The position numbers were made by a program, and so were the translations under genes. The notes beneath the pieces are model-generated. The model worked only from the letters and a program-made list of their open reading frames with translations. It made no database searches and had not been told where the DNA came from. A stretch of 28,041 nucleotides of DNA, from positions 1 through 28,041 of the IMG/VR virus record IMGVR_UViG_3300028376_000024. One strand, 5' to 3'. The stretch is from a virus. Shown here one piece after another: positions 7,888 to 25,192 of the stretch. Numbering within the stretch: the stretch's first letter is position 1; every line of letters begins with the position of its first letter.

Positions 7888-8174
7888 CCATACTCAAAGA
7901 CATTAAAGCGATAGGCCTTGCTAATCAAGCGGTTTTCAAGAACATTGAGAGTCAGACAGGGATTAGCCGTTGGCGATTGAAGTCTAAAAGCAGGAAGGAG
8001 GACGTGGTTTACGCAAGGTACCTGTTTGTTCAGGAAGTTAAATCCTACATGAAAATAAACCATATTGCCGAATTGCTTAACATTCACCGCACAAGCGTTT
8101 ATCACTATCTCTATGACCACCAACCGAAAAAAAAACTTGTTAACCAATTCTCTTATAAGGGGCTTAAAAAATGA
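7884..8174 (+). CDS. Stand-alone DnaA domain IV-like DNA-binding protein
   Basis: This 96-residue protein resembles only the C-terminal DNA-binding domain of DnaA. After an N-terminal helix (residues ~17-30), the segment RKEDVVYARYLFVQEVK matches the basic-loop and R..V.AR..A helix of domain IV. HIAELLNIHRTSVYHYLYDH at ~60-79 corresponds to the HTH that reads the DnaA box (IG..FG.RDHSTVLHA in DnaA). The ATPase domain is absent. It has a good SD (GGAGG, 5-9 bases upstream) and overlaps both neighbours. It may mark the phage origin, compete with host DnaA, or regulate a promoter. The following gene is a replication-initiator-like protein, which supports a replication role. Confidence 0.75.
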   Translation: MTILKDIKAIGLANQAVFKNIESQTGISRWRLKSKSRKEDVVYARYLFVQEVKSYMKINHIAELLNIHRTSVYHYLYDHQPKKKLVNQFSYKGLKK

Positions 8175-10546: not shown

Positions 10547-11854
10547 GTGCGAGAGCAAATTGAATATCGCATAGCATCGTGGCAGGATGATTTCATAAGC
10601 GACTACAATAAACGGGTTGCGATTATAGCGGCAAAAGGATCTGGAAAAACATGGTCGGGAGCAAGATTCGTAGCTAATCAGGCCGCTCTACAGCCGAATG
10701 AACAGCATTTAATCATGCTAAATACGCTTGGACAGGCTCGTGACGTTTTTTATCAGGACATTGAGCCACTGCTACAGGAACTAAATTGGCCGTACCATTT
10801 CTCACCTCAGTACGGCGTTCTCAAAATATTCGATACTACCTTTCACGTTCGTAGCGCTGAGAAAGATTCTATTAAGCGCATTGAGTCGATTGTCTACGCC
10901 TCTGGTTGGGCTGATGAGGTGTCATTCTACGACTACGAATCATTCAAGGTATTCTTTTCTCGTATTCGTGTAGGAAAGCGCCTTGTTCGGGTAAGTTCCA
11001 TGCCGGATGACCCCGAACACTGGATATACACTATGCTTGATAAAGCGAAATTTATCATGCACGAAAAGTCGCTTTATGACAATCCCGATAAAGAGTTTGT
11101 TAAGAACTACGAAGAGATTTTGAAAGCGATTTATGAAGGCCCACAGCTCAAGCGGTATCTCAGTGGCGAGAGGGTGTCCCTTGCGGGGCTTGGCCTGTTC
11201 AACGTGCATCCGAGTATGAAGGGTGAAGAAACTGTTGACCCCGACATGGATATTTACTTGCATTGGGATTTCAACGTTTCTTATCGGGCGGTGTCAGCCT
11301 GGCAACAAAGGGGCCGGGATGAAAAGGGTCGCCCTATGGTTGCCTGCGTTCGATCATGGCAGATGAAAGAGAAGATTGTTCACGAAGATGCGATTGCGCT
11401 TGCGAAAGTATTCGAGAATCACAATGGTATTATCTATCTTGGGGGTGATGCGTCTGAAAACAAGCGTAGCTCTCAGACAACGGAAAGTATATGGCAAAGC
11501 GTTCGCAGAGGATTCAAAGAGCATTTTCAGGAAAAGGTAGAAAATGATTCAGCATACACCCCTCCAAGCGTCAGAAACATCGTTCCGAGCAAGAACCCGT
11601 CCGTCAAAGACACGATTCAATGCGCTAATTGGGCGTTCATACAAGGATTAGTCTCTTTTGATGCGGGTGAAAAAAATGTATATTCTTCATTACAGGCAGT
11701 CAAAGCAGATAAATATGGCGAAATTGATAAATCAGGTGATGATTCTCCCGGCGGCGCAAAAACACATGAATCTGACACGGCAAGGTACGCGCTTTGGCAC
11801 TTCTACAAGAAGCTGTACCCTGGTGGGACTGGAAAACTTTGGGCGGTAGGATGA
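10547..11854 (+). CDS. terL: Terminase large subunit
   Basis: This 435-residue protein is the motor that drives DNA into the prohead and cuts concatemers. The N-terminal ATPase has Walker A AAKGSGKT (28-35) and a Walker-B-like IVYASGWADE (115-124) with the catalytic glutamate at 124. The C-terminal RNase H-like nuclease shows D241 (HWDFNVS), D301 (GGDASENK) and the H407/D410 region (HESDTARYALW). Length is typical for TerL. The start is GTG at 10547 just after the previous stop; a nearby ATG at 10545 is in another frame and closes quickly. The stop overlaps the portal start (ATGA). No clear small terminase gene precedes it. Confidence 0.93.
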   Translation: MREQIEYRIASWQDDFISDYNKRVAIIAAKGSGKTWSGARFVANQAALQPNEQHLIMLNTLGQARDVFYQDIEPLLQELNWPYHFSPQYGVLKIFDTTFHVRSAEKDSIKRIESIVYASGWADEVSFYDYESFKVFFSRIRVGKRLVRVSSMPDDPEHWIYTMLDKAKFIMHEKSLYDNPDKEFVKNYEEILKAIYEGPQLKRYLSGERVSLAGLGLFNVHPSMKGEETVDPDMDIYLHWDFNVSYRAVSAWQQRGRDEKGRPMVACVRSWQMKEKIVHEDAIALAKVFENHNGIIYLGGDASENKRSSQTTESIWQSVRRGFKEHFQEKVENDSAYTPPSVRNIVPSKNPSVKDTIQCANWAFIQGLVSFDAGEKNVYSSLQAVKADKYGEIDKSGDDSPGGAKTHESDTARYALWHFYKKLYPGGTGKLWAVG

Positions 11855-18029: not shown

Positions 18030-18437
18030 ATGGCAATTTCAGCCCCTTTAATTTTTGACGAGATTGAGATCACAGACGCTGGTGGTGGTACCGCCGAGCA
18101 ATACGCAAATCACCTGGTAGATTCTGCCGAAGTGACCCCGGAGCCGACAAGCTCAAAGGTTGGCGATGGGCAGACGCTTACCGACTTTTACGATGTTGAA
18201 TATGCCGTGAATCTGTATGAGCTTGGCATTCTTGATGATGCTCGTGTTTACACAAACTCGTCAGAAGAGCCGGTCAGGGCAGACATTATTTTCAAGAAAG
18301 CGACCGGCGCTGTTCAGCTTGTTCTGTCAAACGTTATCATTAACGGCACGAGGACGTATGACGGTAATCGGGTGCAAGCCCGTGTATTCGGCTCCAAGCG
18401 ATCCGTTCAAATAAGCGATACAATTACAGAATCGTAA
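18030..18437 (+). CDS. Probable major tail (tube) protein
   Basis: The 135-residue protein is almost entirely strand-forming and acidic: MAISAPLIFDEIEITDAGGG, then DVEYAVNLYELGILDDARVYTNSSEE, VRADIIFKKATGAVQLVLSNVIIN and VFGSKRSVQISDTI. It has no Cys, Met apart from the start, or Trp. This fits a tail tube or related virion protein. Its own intergenic leader suggests separate strong expression. The next gene (18449) has a similar size and place, so which one is the tube is unclear. The start has no SD and an A/T-rich leader. Confidence 0.5.
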   Translation: MAISAPLIFDEIEITDAGGGTAEQYANHLVDSAEVTPEPTSSKVGDGQTLTDFYDVEYAVNLYELGILDDARVYTNSSEEPVRADIIFKKATGAVQLVLSNVIINGTRTYDGNRVQARVFGSKRSVQISDTITES

Positions 18438-18847: not shown

Positions 18848-19357
18848 ATGGCTATAAAATCACAGGCTTTTTATCTCGGCAAAAATGCTCTCGGCCTCTA
18901 TGACTACAGAGAGGGAGATTCAAACTTATTGGGAGGATTCGACCTTGACCCCGGTTTTTCAGGTTCAATAAATGACGTGTCGGGGTCTGTTTCAGGCGCA
19001 GTTCAAACCGTCATCACAGACAATAGGCTCGTTGGTGTTATGTCAAAGCCGATACTGTTTCCTTTTCCTATCATAAATTTCGATGGCCATACGGTTATTG
19101 CGTCTGCCGATTTTAGCGCCGCCACGGTTCGTTTTGTAGTTGGCGTTCGGTTTCTTGATGCAAATAAAGAACAGATTAGTAGATCAACATCAGACTATAT
19201 AGCATCGGGCCGCCGACACCATGAAGCTTTTATTTCCATAGGAACGGTTTATATTCAGTGGTTTACAGCAAGGGAAGATGATACCGCCGCCGATGGTGGA
19301 CAGTGGTCATTCACGCGACCTGCACTTAGGATTAATGGAACTACATTTACACCATAA
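18848..19357 (+). CDS. Tail protein with jelly-roll/carbohydrate-binding-like fold
   Basis: The 169-residue protein has the cadence of phage carbohydrate-binding-like modules. An NLLGGFDLD start (about residues 27-35) is followed by a strand-rich core and FSAATVRFVVGVRFLDANKEQIS. Its FTRPALRINGTTFTP end resembles the 'ar..l..G..at.yt.' terminus of such domains. Such domains usually occur in tail fibres. Here it lies between tail tube candidates and the G/GT chaperone genes, so it may decorate the tail tube. The protein ends right at the start of the next gene (TAATG overlap). The fold call is by eye. Confidence 0.45.
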   Translation: MAIKSQAFYLGKNALGLYDYREGDSNLLGGFDLDPGFSGSINDVSGSVSGAVQTVITDNRLVGVMSKPILFPFPIINFDGHTVIASADFSAATVRFVVGVRFLDANKEQISRSTSDYIASGRRHHEAFISIGTVYIQWFTAREDDTAADGGQWSFTRPALRINGTTFTP

Positions 19358-19725
19358 TGGATTTACGCGAACAGATTCAAGTCAACGGCGTTCGGGTTCG
19401 GCTTAAACCGTACACTGAGCTTCGTTACAAACAAATGCAGAAGATTGAAGATGATATTGACGCATTTGTTCAGCAAAATAATGACAAGTCGTTCAAGGAT
19501 ATTCCCGTGAAAGACAAAGCTCAGTTCTGGATGCGAAAAGCAAGAATCCTATGGGAGCCGGAACCACGTTTTGATCAAAACGGTGAGCCGGTTGAGCTAA
19601 CCGAGGCGCATTGGGATAAGAAAGAGCAGTTTTTCACACCCTCTTTTTTTGAGGACGATGCGTTTGAATATCCTATCCTTGCCAAGAGTCAGACTTTTTT
19701 TTTGACGCAAGAAGTGTATCTATAG
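19357..19725 (+). CDS. Tail assembly chaperone, G-like
   Basis: This 122-residue protein is the short form of the tail chaperone pair. It is mostly helical and charged (LREQIQVNGVRVRLKPYTEL, RYKQMQKIEDDIDAFVQQNN), with a P-rich middle (PEPRFDQNGEPVELTEAHWD) and an end FEYPILAKSQTFFLTQEVYL. The place immediately before a T-like frame and the tape measure gene is that of lambda G. In lambda, G and GT bind the tape measure protein during tail assembly and are not in the virion. Near its end a T9 run is in slippery phase, which allows the longer GT form. Confidence 0.8.
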   Translation: MDLREQIQVNGVRVRLKPYTELRYKQMQKIEDDIDAFVQQNNDKSFKDIPVKDKAQFWMRKARILWEPEPRFDQNGEPVELTEAHWDKKEQFFTPSFFEDDAFEYPILAKSQTFFLTQEVYL

Positions 19726-19979
19726 AGAAGGCAGAGCATTATTTCGCTCAGTCTATATCCTTTATGGACGATGCTTCTTCTTCGTCAAACCCGCCTCAGA
19801 CAAAACAGCAATGGATTGAAAATACGGGGACTTATCACTATTATGCCCTTATACTTGCAAACTTCAATCCCAATAGTGCATTAGATATACTCGATAACCC
19901 GGCTGATGTAATTGCACAAGCCTACGTTTCGATGAAATGCTACGATTGGTCACCAAAAAAGGACACGCATGGCCGGTAG
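19357..19979 (+). CDS. GT-like tail chaperone made by -1 frameshift
   Basis: The T frame (71 residues from ATG 19764) has no credible own start and is open in phase back to the slippery T run at 19695-19703. A -1 shift there joins the two frames into a product of about 207 residues. The shifted part reads DARSVSIEKAEHYFAQSI... and then MDDASSSSNPPQTKQQWIEN, and ends at TAG 19977-19979, overlapping the tape measure start. The T part is helical, with YHYYALILANFNPNSALDIL and IAQAYVSMKCYDW, which fits a tape-measure-binding domain. The frames and positions are read directly from sequence; that frameshifting occurs is inferred from the lambda G/GT system. Confidence 0.82.
19695..19704 (+). other. 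Slippery site T TTT TTG for -1 frameshifting
   Basis: Nine T (19695-19703) followed by G. In the G frame the codons are TTT TTT TTG, so T TTT TTG (19698-19704) is a valid X XXY YYZ heptamer. The P-site tRNA re-pairs perfectly and the A-site tRNA in two positions. The shift goes from the G frame to the T frame, exactly the -1 direction required. No clear downstream pseudoknot was recognised by eye. Confidence 0.8.
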
Positions 19980-22512
19980 TGATGAGCTAATTTATAGAAT
20001 CAAGTTTGAGACGGACGAGTCAAGCAAAGAGAGTGTCAAGCAATCCTTAAAAGACCTTCGGGAAGAACAGGAAAAAGCCGCTTCGTCAAAGCTCAATGAA
20101 TCCCTGAAAGAAACTATTGAAGTACAGGGGCAGTTCACGGAAGAAAATCTAAAGACGATTGAACGACTTGTTGAGCTTCGTAAACAGATTGATTCCTACC
20201 GGGAGTCACTTTCTGAAATTAGAAAGGCGAAGCGTGACGATATTGATCTTACCGATGCACAAAGAGAAAAGGAAGTAGAAATTCGTGCTTCACTCAAGGA
20301 AGCTTCTCAGGCGTACCGAGACAACCAGAAAGAGCTTATAGCGAACACTACCTCGGTTGACGGTGCTACTGTATCTTACAATCAATTAGCGTCCGAAACA
20401 AAGCTGCTTGAACAGCAGTTGCGGAAATTGCCGATTGATGAAGAGAGTGAAGAGTTCAAGGGCCTCCAAAAGCAGATAGGTCAAAACCGCGAAGAAATGA
20501 AGAAGTTCAACGCGGACATTGGCGATCACTCCATGAATGTAGGTAACTACTCTGAGGCTATGAGTACCGCCGCATCTGCCCTCGCCTCATTTGAGGGGCC
20601 GCTTGGTCCAATAGCAGGGCGATTGAACTCTATCAATACAACGATGAAGCGCGCAATACCGATTATAAAAGCAAAGACGGCGGCTTGGAGCGCTCTTAGA
20701 ATAGCTATAATGTCAACGGGTATTGGCTTACTTATAGTCGGTTTGGGAACGCTAATTGCCGCACTCCGAACAATTCAACCTGTCGTTGATGAGGTAACCA
20801 AGCGATTCCAGCAACTTGGCGCTATTTGGGGGTATGCCAGAGATCGCATTGGATGGTTATTAGGAATGAATGAGATGTCTAATTTCAGCCTGATGGAGTC
20901 TATTCGTATAACCGGAGAGCTTGCCGATGCGGAACGCGCGCTTGAGGATGCAAGAATAAATTCTACCGAGCGACTTGCAGAGCTTCAATCAGACATTGCA
21001 ATGCTACGGCGTGATGCAGAGGATGAATCCTTGTCTCACCGGGAAAGAATGCGCCGAATGGACGATGCTATTGCCAAGACCGAGGAAGAGTTTCGCATTA
21101 AAAGGGAATTTGCCGAGGAGGAGGTTCGTATCGCCGAGCGCCGAGCCTCTATTGCGCGTAATGAACGGTCAGACAATAAAGAAGTTGCCGAGACGCGAGC
21201 CGCACTTGTGAAGCTACAGGGTGAGCAGGCTATGTCGGAAAGGCAGTTGCTTCGCCGCCGTCAATCCATTATTAACAGCCTTGAGACGGAAGAAAACCGC
21301 CGTAGAAAAAATATCCAATCTATTCGTGATGAGGCGCAAGCCCTTGAGGATGCGTTCAGAGAAAGGGTTCTGCAATATACTAATGACCCGACCGAGACCC
21401 TTGCAGAGCAACGTCACCGCCGAATGGTAGCTTTGTATGAGGGATTGGGGGAGAATCGCCTTGCGATTGAATTAAAGGCGAATCGAGATGTTGATAAGGC
21501 AAGACAAGAGTCCGAGCAAAAGATTAAGGAAGCCTACGAAAATAGAGAGGAGAGGGAGACGGCTTTAATGAAGAAATTGATCGTTGATGGTGTTGAATCT
21601 GAAAAAGCAAGGGGAGATGCAATTATTGAAATCAGAAAACGTATCGAAGAAGAGATTGAGGCTATTGAAGAAGGAAAGCGGTTAATGATTAAAGCCATAC
21701 GTGAACAAGAATCGGCTGATACAAACGCTATACTTGATGAAGAGATCAAGAATCGCAATAATGTCCGCGCTCAGATTCAACAACTTGAAAAAGAGTCGGC
21801 TATTCGCAACATGGCATTGCAGTCTCAGATTCGAGGCGAAGCGAACCGCCAGCTACTTGTTCTTGAAGAGCAAAAAGAAATGAGGCGTTTAGAACTTCTT
21901 CGTGAGTATCGTGAACTTGAATTTACAGAAGAGCAGGCGCAACAAAACTCCCGCAGACAGGCAGAGCTTGAATTTGAAGAGAATATCCAGAAAACGAAAA
22001 CGGCTATCCGTCAGGCCGAGTTGCAGAACCGACTTGACATGGAGCAAGCCTACGCTGATTTAACGTTTGGAGTGTTGTCAACATTATTTCAGGATGCAAA
22101 AGGCGTTCAGGTAGCCACAGCGATTGCAGATACCTATGTAGCGGCCAACAAAGCTCTTGCATCGGCTCCACCACCGTTGTCAACTATTCGGGCGGCGGCG
22201 GCGGTTGCTATGGGACTGGCAAATGTTCGTAAAATTATGAAAGCTGAACCTGGCGATAAGCCGAGTGGAAGCGGCGGCGGCTCTCAACAAGCAGCGCTAT
22301 CATCACAACGAGGATTTGAAGTTCTTGGAGCCGATCAGGACGAAGGCGCGGTTGCCCGTCAGGTCGCGGAAATGGGGTCGTCCTCTGATGGTCGCGGAGA
22401 TCCTACATTCATATTTAAAGGCGATCTTGATTCTGAGATCATGGCAATCAAAGTCCGGCAAGGAAACCGCACCATTAATACAAAATCTGTGATAACCAAT
22501 TCTCGTTCATAA
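19969..22512 (+). CDS. Tape measure protein
   Basis: The 847-residue protein sets tail length and helps DNA entry. It is mostly coiled coil with long charged helical runs (residues ~15-180 and ~310-700). A hydrophobic segment at ~238-266 (IAIMSTGIGLLIVGLGTLIAAL) is typical of tape measure proteins. A Gly/Ser-rich part follows at ~760-780, and the C-terminus is polar. From typical coiled-coil rise, ~847 residues correspond to a tail of about 120-130 nm; this is an estimate. ATG 19969 overlaps the end of the T frame, the classical neighbour relation. No lysozyme-like or peptidase domain was seen. Confidence 0.9.
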   Translation: MAGSDELIYRIKFETDESSKESVKQSLKDLREEQEKAASSKLNESLKETIEVQGQFTEENLKTIERLVELRKQIDSYRESLSEIRKAKRDDIDLTDAQREKEVEIRASLKEASQAYRDNQKELIANTTSVDGATVSYNQLASETKLLEQQLRKLPIDEESEEFKGLQKQIGQNREEMKKFNADIGDHSMNVGNYSEAMSTAASALASFEGPLGPIAGRLNSINTTMKRAIPIIKAKTAAWSALRIAIMSTGIGLLIVGLGTLIAALRTIQPVVDEVTKRFQQLGAIWGYARDRIGWLLGMNEMSNFSLMESIRITGELADAERALEDARINSTERLAELQSDIAMLRRDAEDESLSHRERMRRMDDAIAKTEEEFRIKREFAEEEVRIAERRASIARNERSDNKEVAETRAALVKLQGEQAMSERQLLRRRQSIINSLETEENRRRKNIQSIRDEAQALEDAFRERVLQYTNDPTETLAEQRHRRMVALYEGLGENRLAIELKANRDVDKARQESEQKIKEAYENREERETALMKKLIVDGVESEKARGDAIIEIRKRIEEEIEAIEEGKRLMIKAIREQESADTNAILDEEIKNRNNVRAQIQQLEKESAIRNMALQSQIRGEANRQLLVLEEQKEMRRLELLREYRELEFTEEQAQQNSRRQAELEFEENIQKTKTAIRQAELQNRLDMEQAYADLTFGVLSTLFQDAKGVQVATAIADTYVAANKALASAPPPLSTIRAAAAVAMGLANVRKIMKAEPGDKPSGSGGGSQQAALSSQRGFEVLGADQDEGAVARQVAEMGSSSDGRGDPTFIFKGDLDSEIMAIKVRQGNRTINTKSVITNSRS

Positions 22513-22997
22513 TGGCAAAAACATCAAAACAGGTCAAACAGATTGCGATTCAGTTAGGCACGTATGAGAGCGGTTCGTTTACCGCTACAGTCGACTATGA
22601 CCCGGCTATTTTGTACGATGTATGGAATTTTGACGGTAGGTGGCGTACGGACTGGCTTGGCGGTAATGCAAATACACGTAGTTTAACAGGCTTTGATCGC
22701 GTGGGTGTGGGCGGGTATCGCCTTGATTTACGGGTTACATTCCGTCACATGACTCCTTCACAGGCGACAAAAATGAGAAATTTACTCAATGACCTGTTTG
22801 AAGTGCCTGCATTCCCGAGGATTATAAAGATTTCGGCTGACGACACTATTGCAAACGGCGTATTATGCAATATCAGGTCAGCAGCCTTTGGTATTCGCCG
22901 TGAAATGACTATTGGCAGGCAAGCGGTCAACATGCAGTTCTCAGGGCTTCTCAGGGTTGATACGATACCCGATTCATATGAAATTGCGAGTGGATAA
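22512..22997 (+). CDS. Distal tail (Dit)-like protein candidate
   Basis: This 161-residue protein follows the tape measure gene (TAATG overlap) and precedes the large hub gene, the place of the distal tail protein. It is beta-rich with many aromatics early (YDVWNFDGRWRTDWLGG), RLDLRVTFRHMTPSQATKMRNLL, and ends with strands MQFSGLLRV. Small Dit-like proteins form the ring at the tail tip that links tube and baseplate. No direct motif is known to me, so the call rests on position, size and composition. Confidence 0.55.
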   Translation: MAKTSKQVKQIAIQLGTYESGSFTATVDYDPAILYDVWNFDGRWRTDWLGGNANTRSLTGFDRVGVGGYRLDLRVTFRHMTPSQATKMRNLLNDLFEVPAFPRIIKISADDTIANGVLCNIRSAAFGIRREMTIGRQAVNMQFSGLLRVDTIPDSYEIASG

Positions 22998-25135
22998 TGA
23001 TTAATGGTTCATTCAGGTCAAAGACAGGTGTTATAAGCGTTGCTATTGACGATGGAGGAACGGCCACAAACGTTGAGGTGTCCGATGTGGGGGGCTTACG
23101 GTACGAGTTCGACCTCATACCCGACTCCCCGGAAGTTGACTCGGTACAAGCCCTTTATTCAAAGCTTGATATTGAGATTTTCCAACATGACAGGGGTAAC
23201 AACGATCTATACGACCGATTATTAACAAACCTGATAGCTCAGGGCGGCGCGAGCGTGATAATAACCGTTGGCGGCGACCCGTTCCGGTTTTTTGTTCAGG
23301 TGAACGACATTAAACTTGATGAGATAGAGCGAACCATAAAATTATCCTGTCGGCCAAGAGTTGATAGCTCTGCAAAGTCGATTGATGTCTTTGATGATAT
23401 TGAAACAGCCGATAATACCCTTTTAGAGCCGTTCTTGCATAATGATGAGTTCCCAACGGAGACGCTTGACTGTGTAGGACCCGAGGACTGGATAAAGTAC
23501 GCACTTAAACAGGTGTTTTTGAACGATGATGATGTCATTTTTGAATCCTGCCCGACCGGGTTAAACCTGAATTATCACCAAAAGAACTATAATTCCTACT
23601 CTGGGGGTATTCCTGACAATATGGTCACAACCGTCATGGTTCGATTAGACCCGCAAATATTCACTGACACTGAAAATGCGGTCGATGGCGAGCAGGTGAT
23701 TCGATACGAGGGAGGCAAATCGTTTACAGGAGGAGGATTTTCAGACCTTTCACCAGGCGATTTGCTGTATGTAAGCCTTGAAGGTGGTCGATTAGGTACA
23801 TTCAGCGAACTTTTTACCGTTGATGCGATCATCTCAGACAATGAATTGACCGTTGTAGAGAACGTGACCACATTAGCCCAACGCTCATACAGCTACAAGT
23901 ACGCAATTGAGTATTCGACCGAGACCATACTGACGATTGACTCTCTAAAAGAGCTTGCCGCAATGGAGGGGTCTATTTTCGGATATGCGTTCGGCAAGAA
24001 CTTTTTTATCAACCGATTACAGCGTAATCAGGTGGTTAGTATCAGTTGGGACGATGTAGTGGATAGTGATATTGACCCGTATTACAACCCGGTTGGCGGC
24101 GGCTTCATTGTGCAGCTTGCTCGGACGTATAAAGACTTAGGGAACAGCGAAAAGAACTTTGGAGCCGAAAACCTCGGTATCTGGCCTGTTATAAGCGGTA
24201 ATTACGAGCTTCCATTGATTACAGACGCAAAAGTTCAGGCTCCTAACGTTCCAAATACCAGTCAAAGAGTTAATTTACGACTTGCGCCGGGCTATCCATT
24301 CTTCAATAAGGTGATTGGTCAGCACCTTGAAAGCTCAGAAAGATTTTTGGGTAAATATTACATTCCCGCAATCCCTATTTACATTCAGGACGCACCTCAG
24401 CCGGGGTCGGAACCGCAAGTTTTACCTCCTGAACAATGGTATGAGGATTACAAACCGATGCTTGCGCTATGCAGGTCGGGGTTAAACAGCTATATACGGT
24501 CTATATCGTCTAACGGAAACAACATATTCATTGATTTTACCTGTTTTTACGCTAAAAGCATCAAGCCGTGGAATTTGATTGAGTTCGTGGACGGGCCAAA
24601 TACTGATTGCCCGGCTCGGTATAAGGGCAAGCTGTTTCGACCAACGGCTCTCGAATATGACTTCAAGAACGATACGGTCAACGCAAAAGCCTACGAGATT
24701 CTTGAAAATGATATTGCAAGTTTCAGCCAAGAGTTTGCAGAGGACATTGGCGCTATTTATGGCGAGTCCGGAACTGATGGCAGCGTCACGGTAGAAGTTA
24801 ATGTTGGCACGACACCCCCTGCAAGTTTTGACGCACCTTTTATTGACTCTGCCGCTTTTGAGGGTAGTCGATCCATCAGTGCGGAGTGGGATTATGGAGA
24901 TTCACCAAGCTATTTTGATGCTCAGATACGCATAAACTTTAGTACATGGGAAAGCGTGCCTCCTGACTATAATTCCGATCAGAATTGGGGAACGTCCACA
25001 GATCCTAAAGAGGGTGCATGGCTTGCCAGTCAGTCCCTTGTATCCGGTGACGTTGCCCAGATCCGAATCAGAGCAGGCGCTCAGGGAGGTAATGAGGCAA
25101 GCGATTGGTCAAATGAGGTTTCTGTATCAATTTAA
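22997..25135 (+). CDS. Large tail hub/tip protein with C-terminal FN3-like domain
   Basis: The 712-residue protein is a likely baseplate hub or tail-associated structural protein. The N-terminal ~140 residues are beta-rich (VISVAIDDGGTATNVEVSDV, RFFVQVNDIKLDEIERTIKL), suggestive of a hub domain. The middle (~150-580) has many aromatics and beta strands (e.g. GIPDNMVTTVMVRLDPQIF, YSYKYAIEYSTETILTIDSL). After a Gly/Thr/Val linker (~597-617) comes an FN3-like domain (~618-712) with ISAEWDYGDSPSYFDAQIRI and a WSNEVSVSI end. No lytic domain motif was found. It starts by TAATG overlap with the Dit-like gene. Long A/T-rich space follows it. Confidence 0.7.
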   Translation: MINGSFRSKTGVISVAIDDGGTATNVEVSDVGGLRYEFDLIPDSPEVDSVQALYSKLDIEIFQHDRGNNDLYDRLLTNLIAQGGASVIITVGGDPFRFFVQVNDIKLDEIERTIKLSCRPRVDSSAKSIDVFDDIETADNTLLEPFLHNDEFPTETLDCVGPEDWIKYALKQVFLNDDDVIFESCPTGLNLNYHQKNYNSYSGGIPDNMVTTVMVRLDPQIFTDTENAVDGEQVIRYEGGKSFTGGGFSDLSPGDLLYVSLEGGRLGTFSELFTVDAIISDNELTVVENVTTLAQRSYSYKYAIEYSTETILTIDSLKELAAMEGSIFGYAFGKNFFINRLQRNQVVSISWDDVVDSDIDPYYNPVGGGFIVQLARTYKDLGNSEKNFGAENLGIWPVISGNYELPLITDAKVQAPNVPNTSQRVNLRLAPGYPFFNKVIGQHLESSERFLGKYYIPAIPIYIQDAPQPGSEPQVLPPEQWYEDYKPMLALCRSGLNSYIRSISSNGNNIFIDFTCFYAKSIKPWNLIEFVDGPNTDCPARYKGKLFRPTALEYDFKNDTVNAKAYEILENDIASFSQEFAEDIGAIYGESGTDGSVTVEVNVGTTPPASFDAPFIDSAAFEGSRSISAEWDYGDSPSYFDAQIRINFSTWESVPPDYNSDQNWGTSTDPKEGAWLASQSLVSGDVAQIRIRAGAQGGNEASDWSNEVSVSI

Positions 25136-25192
25136 TTATAACAACCGATAGAATTTGTGGAGTAACAAAAAAAAATCATTACATTCTACAGT

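Follow-up and report, generated by a model that had tools for sequence, protein, structure and literature searches.

The window analysed here is the whole of IMG/VR virus record IMGVR_UViG_3300028376_000024, a stretch of 28,041 bases that holds a tailed-phage head and tail module, with PHROG matches to terminase, portal, protease, major capsid, head-tail adaptor and tape-measure proteins. Directly upstream of the tape-measure gene lie two overlapping open reading frames, one spanning 19357-19725 and the other running to 19979 in the -1 frame, an arrangement by which the G/GT class of tail genes is recognized. The small genes upstream of this pair, at 18030, 18449 and 18848, are conserved in the related phage L008 (described below), and profile scans of the Pfam/PHROG type returned no match to a major tail protein family. 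Neither Rfam families nor tRNAs were found in the window. The features of the locus are listed below.

19357-19979, plus strand: the whole G/GT-like unit.
19357-19725, plus strand: G-like open reading frame of 122 aa, candidate tail assembly chaperone, short form (open frame, similarity to L008 and coding signal; function suggested by position).
19695-19703, plus strand: run of nine T (T9), read directly; the next base is G19704.
19695-19701, plus strand: slip heptamer T TTT TTT, common to the window and L008 and in phase in both.
19698-19704, plus strand: overlapping heptamer T TTT TTG, in the window only.
19701-19979, plus strand: T-like extension of 92 codons in the -1 frame, the count beginning with the first codon read after the shift (open frame; similarity to L008).
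19709-19780, plus strand: hairpin that may stimulate the shift, starting 7 nt past T TTT TTT (predicted fold).
19969-22512, plus strand: tail tape-measure gene (PHROG tape-measure families, E 3e-4).

The T9 run falls within the last codons of the 122-codon G-like frame, which at this point reads ACT TTT TTT TTG ACG CAA GAA GTG TAT CTA TAG and ends at 19725. In the -1 relation to it, a second frame is open from 19668 to its stop codon at 19977-19979, with its first ATG at 19764, and the tape-measure ATG at 19969 overlaps the end of this frame by 11 nt. An earlier, sequence-only reading of this DNA had described nine T's at 19695-19703 in exact phase with the G-like codons TTT TTT TTG, and a T-like frame at -1 that stays open from the run to the tape-measure gene, and direct inspection agrees with it on both points. 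The extent of 19695-19979 given in that reading can be refined, the whole unit being 19357-19979. A -1 slip would yield a fusion of 207 aa whether it took place on T TTT TTT or on T TTT TTG, the same length as the approximately 207 residues that had been predicted.

On the plus strand, T9 occurs only once in the window, and there are two A9 runs, at 8127-8135 and 25167-25175. Across the window's genes, 33 in-phase heptamers of the X XXY YYZ type were counted, and codon choice by chance would give T TTT TTT at Thr-Phe-Phe about 5% of the time and T9 at Thr-Phe-Phe-Leu about 1% of the time. Taken alone, an in-phase homopolymer heptamer is weak evidence. The site goes beyond chance because it is conserved in L008 and because the coding signal switches between frames: before the site, the codon-usage score was +24.1 for the 19357 frame and -12.5 and -24.2 for the other two, and after 19764 the -1 frame scored +13.4, the stretch between the site and 19764 being too short for the measure.

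Direct queries of viral contigs and phages with the G and T proteins gave no matches, and the sole relative that covers the region, IMG/VR 3300012036_000035 (L008), was then reached through a search with the terminase large subunit (TerL). The TerL of L008 is 78% identical to that of the window outside the intein carried by L008, the portal and capsid proteins are each 55% identical, and the tape-measure proteins are 42-44% identical, with the L008 tape-measure gene overlapping the T frame by 11 nt as well. Searches with the portal and major capsid proteins also retrieved L002, a contig that ends short of the site, and two distant portals (L003 and L004), and a further TerL search gave L010, which likewise ends short of it. 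No relatives were found with the tail protein encoded at 22997-25135 as query, TerL had no match among plasmids, and no prophage was found in the genome contigs scanned. Among named phages, the best matches to the window's TerL (10547-11854) were Salinibacter phages, at only 26% identity.

Against Pfam and PHROG, no credible match was obtained for either the G or the T protein, and structure models of the G protein, which were of low confidence (pLDDT 54 and 63), gave no credible fold match. Membership in the G/GT class does not require a match to a catalogued family, since the class is conserved, and its frameshifting common among phages with long tails, even though the sequences are little alike (PMC5009743).

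Both products aligned well with their counterparts in L008. The G-like protein is 54% identical over 121 residues to the protein encoded at L008:11901-12272, with the stop codon at the equal aligned position, and the T-like protein is 66% identical over 91 residues, in a similarity that begins directly past the run and keeps the equal -1 relation between frames. The fusions computed for the two phages are both 207 residues long and share 121 identical positions. At the site, the aligned L008 codons are GTT TTT TTT CTG AAT CAA GAA GTG TTT CTT TAG, so that the run is T8 followed by C, and the codon after the shared T TTT TTT differs by a synonymous change (TTG in the window, CTG in L008). Since a T8C run cannot contain T TTT TTG, the heptamer shared by the two phages must be T TTT TTT. 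The sequence-only reading was thus right to propose an in-phase poly-T site for -1 slippage, but the heptamer it chose, T TTT TTG, is absent from L008, and the conserved one lies one codon upstream; in the window, both heptamers could serve. Its suggestion that an alignment be checked for retention of the T run was borne out in the one relative available, which keeps T8, the in-phase T TTT TTT and both frames, and an in-phase -1 slippery heptamer retained in the overlap is a further mark of the G/GT class. The junction between frames sits sharply at the run, because the nine T-frame residues upstream of it are dissimilar (ISYPCQESD vs. IPIIAENAG), and conservation of the T-frame peptide begins just past it, at ARSVS/SRSVS. 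The G-like gene also contains T TTT TTT in phase at 19644-19650, 51 nt upstream of the site; slippage there would produce a truncated product, as the -1 frame stops at 19665-19667, and the aligned L008 sequence is C TTT TTT.

The alignment also bears on the accuracy of the run itself. The window is a metagenome-derived assembly, a homopolymer of nine bases is a common spot for length errors, and one more T would join the two frames, so that a miscounted run or a recent indel could conceal a true T10 and a single continuous 207-codon reading frame. However, the independent L008 contig, with its different run (T8C), shows the equal -1 relation and the equal position of the G stop, and a similar error would be required in both assemblies. 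The G tail past the site also remains alike in amino acids, reading LTQEVYL in the window and LNQEVFL in L008, each followed by the stop codon. Because two assemblies with different run lengths keep both frames, a miscounted homopolymer is very improbable.

The presence of an in-frame ATG at 19764 raised the possibility that T is a separate gene of 71 aa, translated from this codon with no frameshift. This ATG is not preceded by a Shine-Dalgarno-like sequence, and the codon at its position in L008 is ACC (Thr). Moreover, about 20 T-frame codons ahead of it are well conserved between the window and L008, which upholds the earlier claim that coding in the T frame begins upstream of the ATG. Separate initiation of T is disfavoured because L008 lacks the ATG and because the T-frame similarity starts at the run, and we regard it as scarcely credible. 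The downstream frame appears to have no start of its own, with no ribosome binding site at 19764 and no ATG in L008, as is characteristic of the G/GT class.

Downstream of the run, the candidate hairpin at 19709-19780 can be lengthened by a weak stem extension to 19704-19786. The 97 nt past the run (19704-19800) had a predicted minimum free energy of -31 kcal/mol and a z score of -3.84, and none of 200 shuffled sequences was as stable. The hairpin window also ranked as the strongest of 2093 windows of 85 nt by GC-corrected energy, a ranking mildly biased in its favour, because 19704 had been selected in advance as a start and was included among the grid positions. In L008, the aligned sequence does not fold into the hairpin, and the structure may be a stimulator particular to the window phage, or a coincidence.

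The site was compared with known systems. Lambda's slippery sequence is GGGAAAG. The window site resembles lambda G/GT in gene position, in the -1 direction and in the short and long chaperones predicted from one start, and differs from it in slippery sequence and in protein sequence. In phage P2, the E/E+E' genes use a -1 frameshift on TTTTTTG (T6G) (PMC3091744; PMC3931495), and are like the window genes in being two overlapping tail genes with a -1 shift, a poly-T slippery site and a downstream part without its own ribosome binding site, although PHROG and Pfam scans detected no sequence similarity between them. A downstream RNA structure is reported to be absent from P2 (PMC3091744), in contrast to the strong hairpin predicted in the window. 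Stenotrophomonas phage Smp131 and its relatives carry a T7G/T7C slippery site (PMC3931495), and in this group, as here (T9G in the window, T8C in L008), T TTT TTT is followed by G or C, varying among relatives; however, these are P2-like phages with unrelated proteins and runs that are one to two bases shorter. Accordingly, the lambda-like arrangement with a poly-T run instead of lambda's sequence, which the sequence-only reading had put forward, is present, but such a run is not unusual, given TTTTTTG in P2 and T7G/T7C in Smp131 (PMC3091744; PMC3931495). The comparisons give good support to the view that the site belongs to the G/GT class of tail-chaperone frameshifts, in which it is new and divergent in sequence but otherwise ordinary.

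The same fusion protein could be made if RNA polymerase, rather than the ribosome, slipped on the T9 or T8 run, so that some transcripts gained one U, or lost two, and were translated normally. Bacterial RNA polymerases are known to slip on runs of nine A or T (PMC5009743), the window has exactly nine T, and the result at the protein level would be identical. U UUU UUU is reported to be much less slippery than A AAA AAG in E. coli, which counts against slippage by the ribosome (PMC5009743). Against polymerase slippage, L008 has only eight T, a length at which polymerase slippage should be weaker, making it a poorer general explanation, and polymerase slippage needs no perfect in-phase X XXY YYZ heptamer, yet both phages keep one. 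At the comparable sites of P2 and Smp131, where the runs have 6 to 7 T, slippage by the ribosome is the accepted explanation. This precedent and the conserved phase favour the ribosome here too, and we consider polymerase slippage improbable as the explanation, although it may make a minor contribution in the window phage.

The frames, the in-phase run and their conservation are observed directly, and we infer from them that the site, with high probability, directs a programmed -1 frameshift by ribosomes, like those of lambda G/GT and P2 E/E'. Translation would mostly pass the run unshifted and end at 19725, producing the 122-aa G-like chaperone. In a minority of cases, both tRNAs would shift back by one base on U UUU UUU, and reading would go on in the -1 frame as far as 19979, giving the 207-aa fusion. 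Slippage in the window phage may be made more frequent by the hairpin that begins 7 nt downstream. The position of the genes before the tape-measure gene suggests a tail-chaperone function, and if the lambda model applies, the tape-measure protein would be coated by the G part and the major tail protein recruited by the T part. An unlikely further reading is that, in the window phage, the long T run makes the G/GT ratio depend on slippage by polymerase as well as by ribosomes, and that the hairpin particular to the window tunes this ratio; run length and RNA structure would then change rapidly under a constant fusion length of 207 residues.

These results add a putative, divergent chaperone pair that present Pfam and PHROG models do not detect to a conserved mechanism of tail-length control, and the identification came from frame conservation rather than homology. 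With T9G and a predicted hairpin in the window, and T8C and no hairpin in L008, the two phages lend themselves to testing how the rate of shifting depends on run length and RNA structure.

The terminase large subunit of the window, like that of L010, has no intein-like insert. In L008, the gene (L008:2368-4512) is split within the Walker A motif by an intein-like insert, with boundaries at GYGK / AQPLWEP ... DFIVTHN / TWSG, that contains a Hint-like stretch and a LAGLIDADG-like domain.
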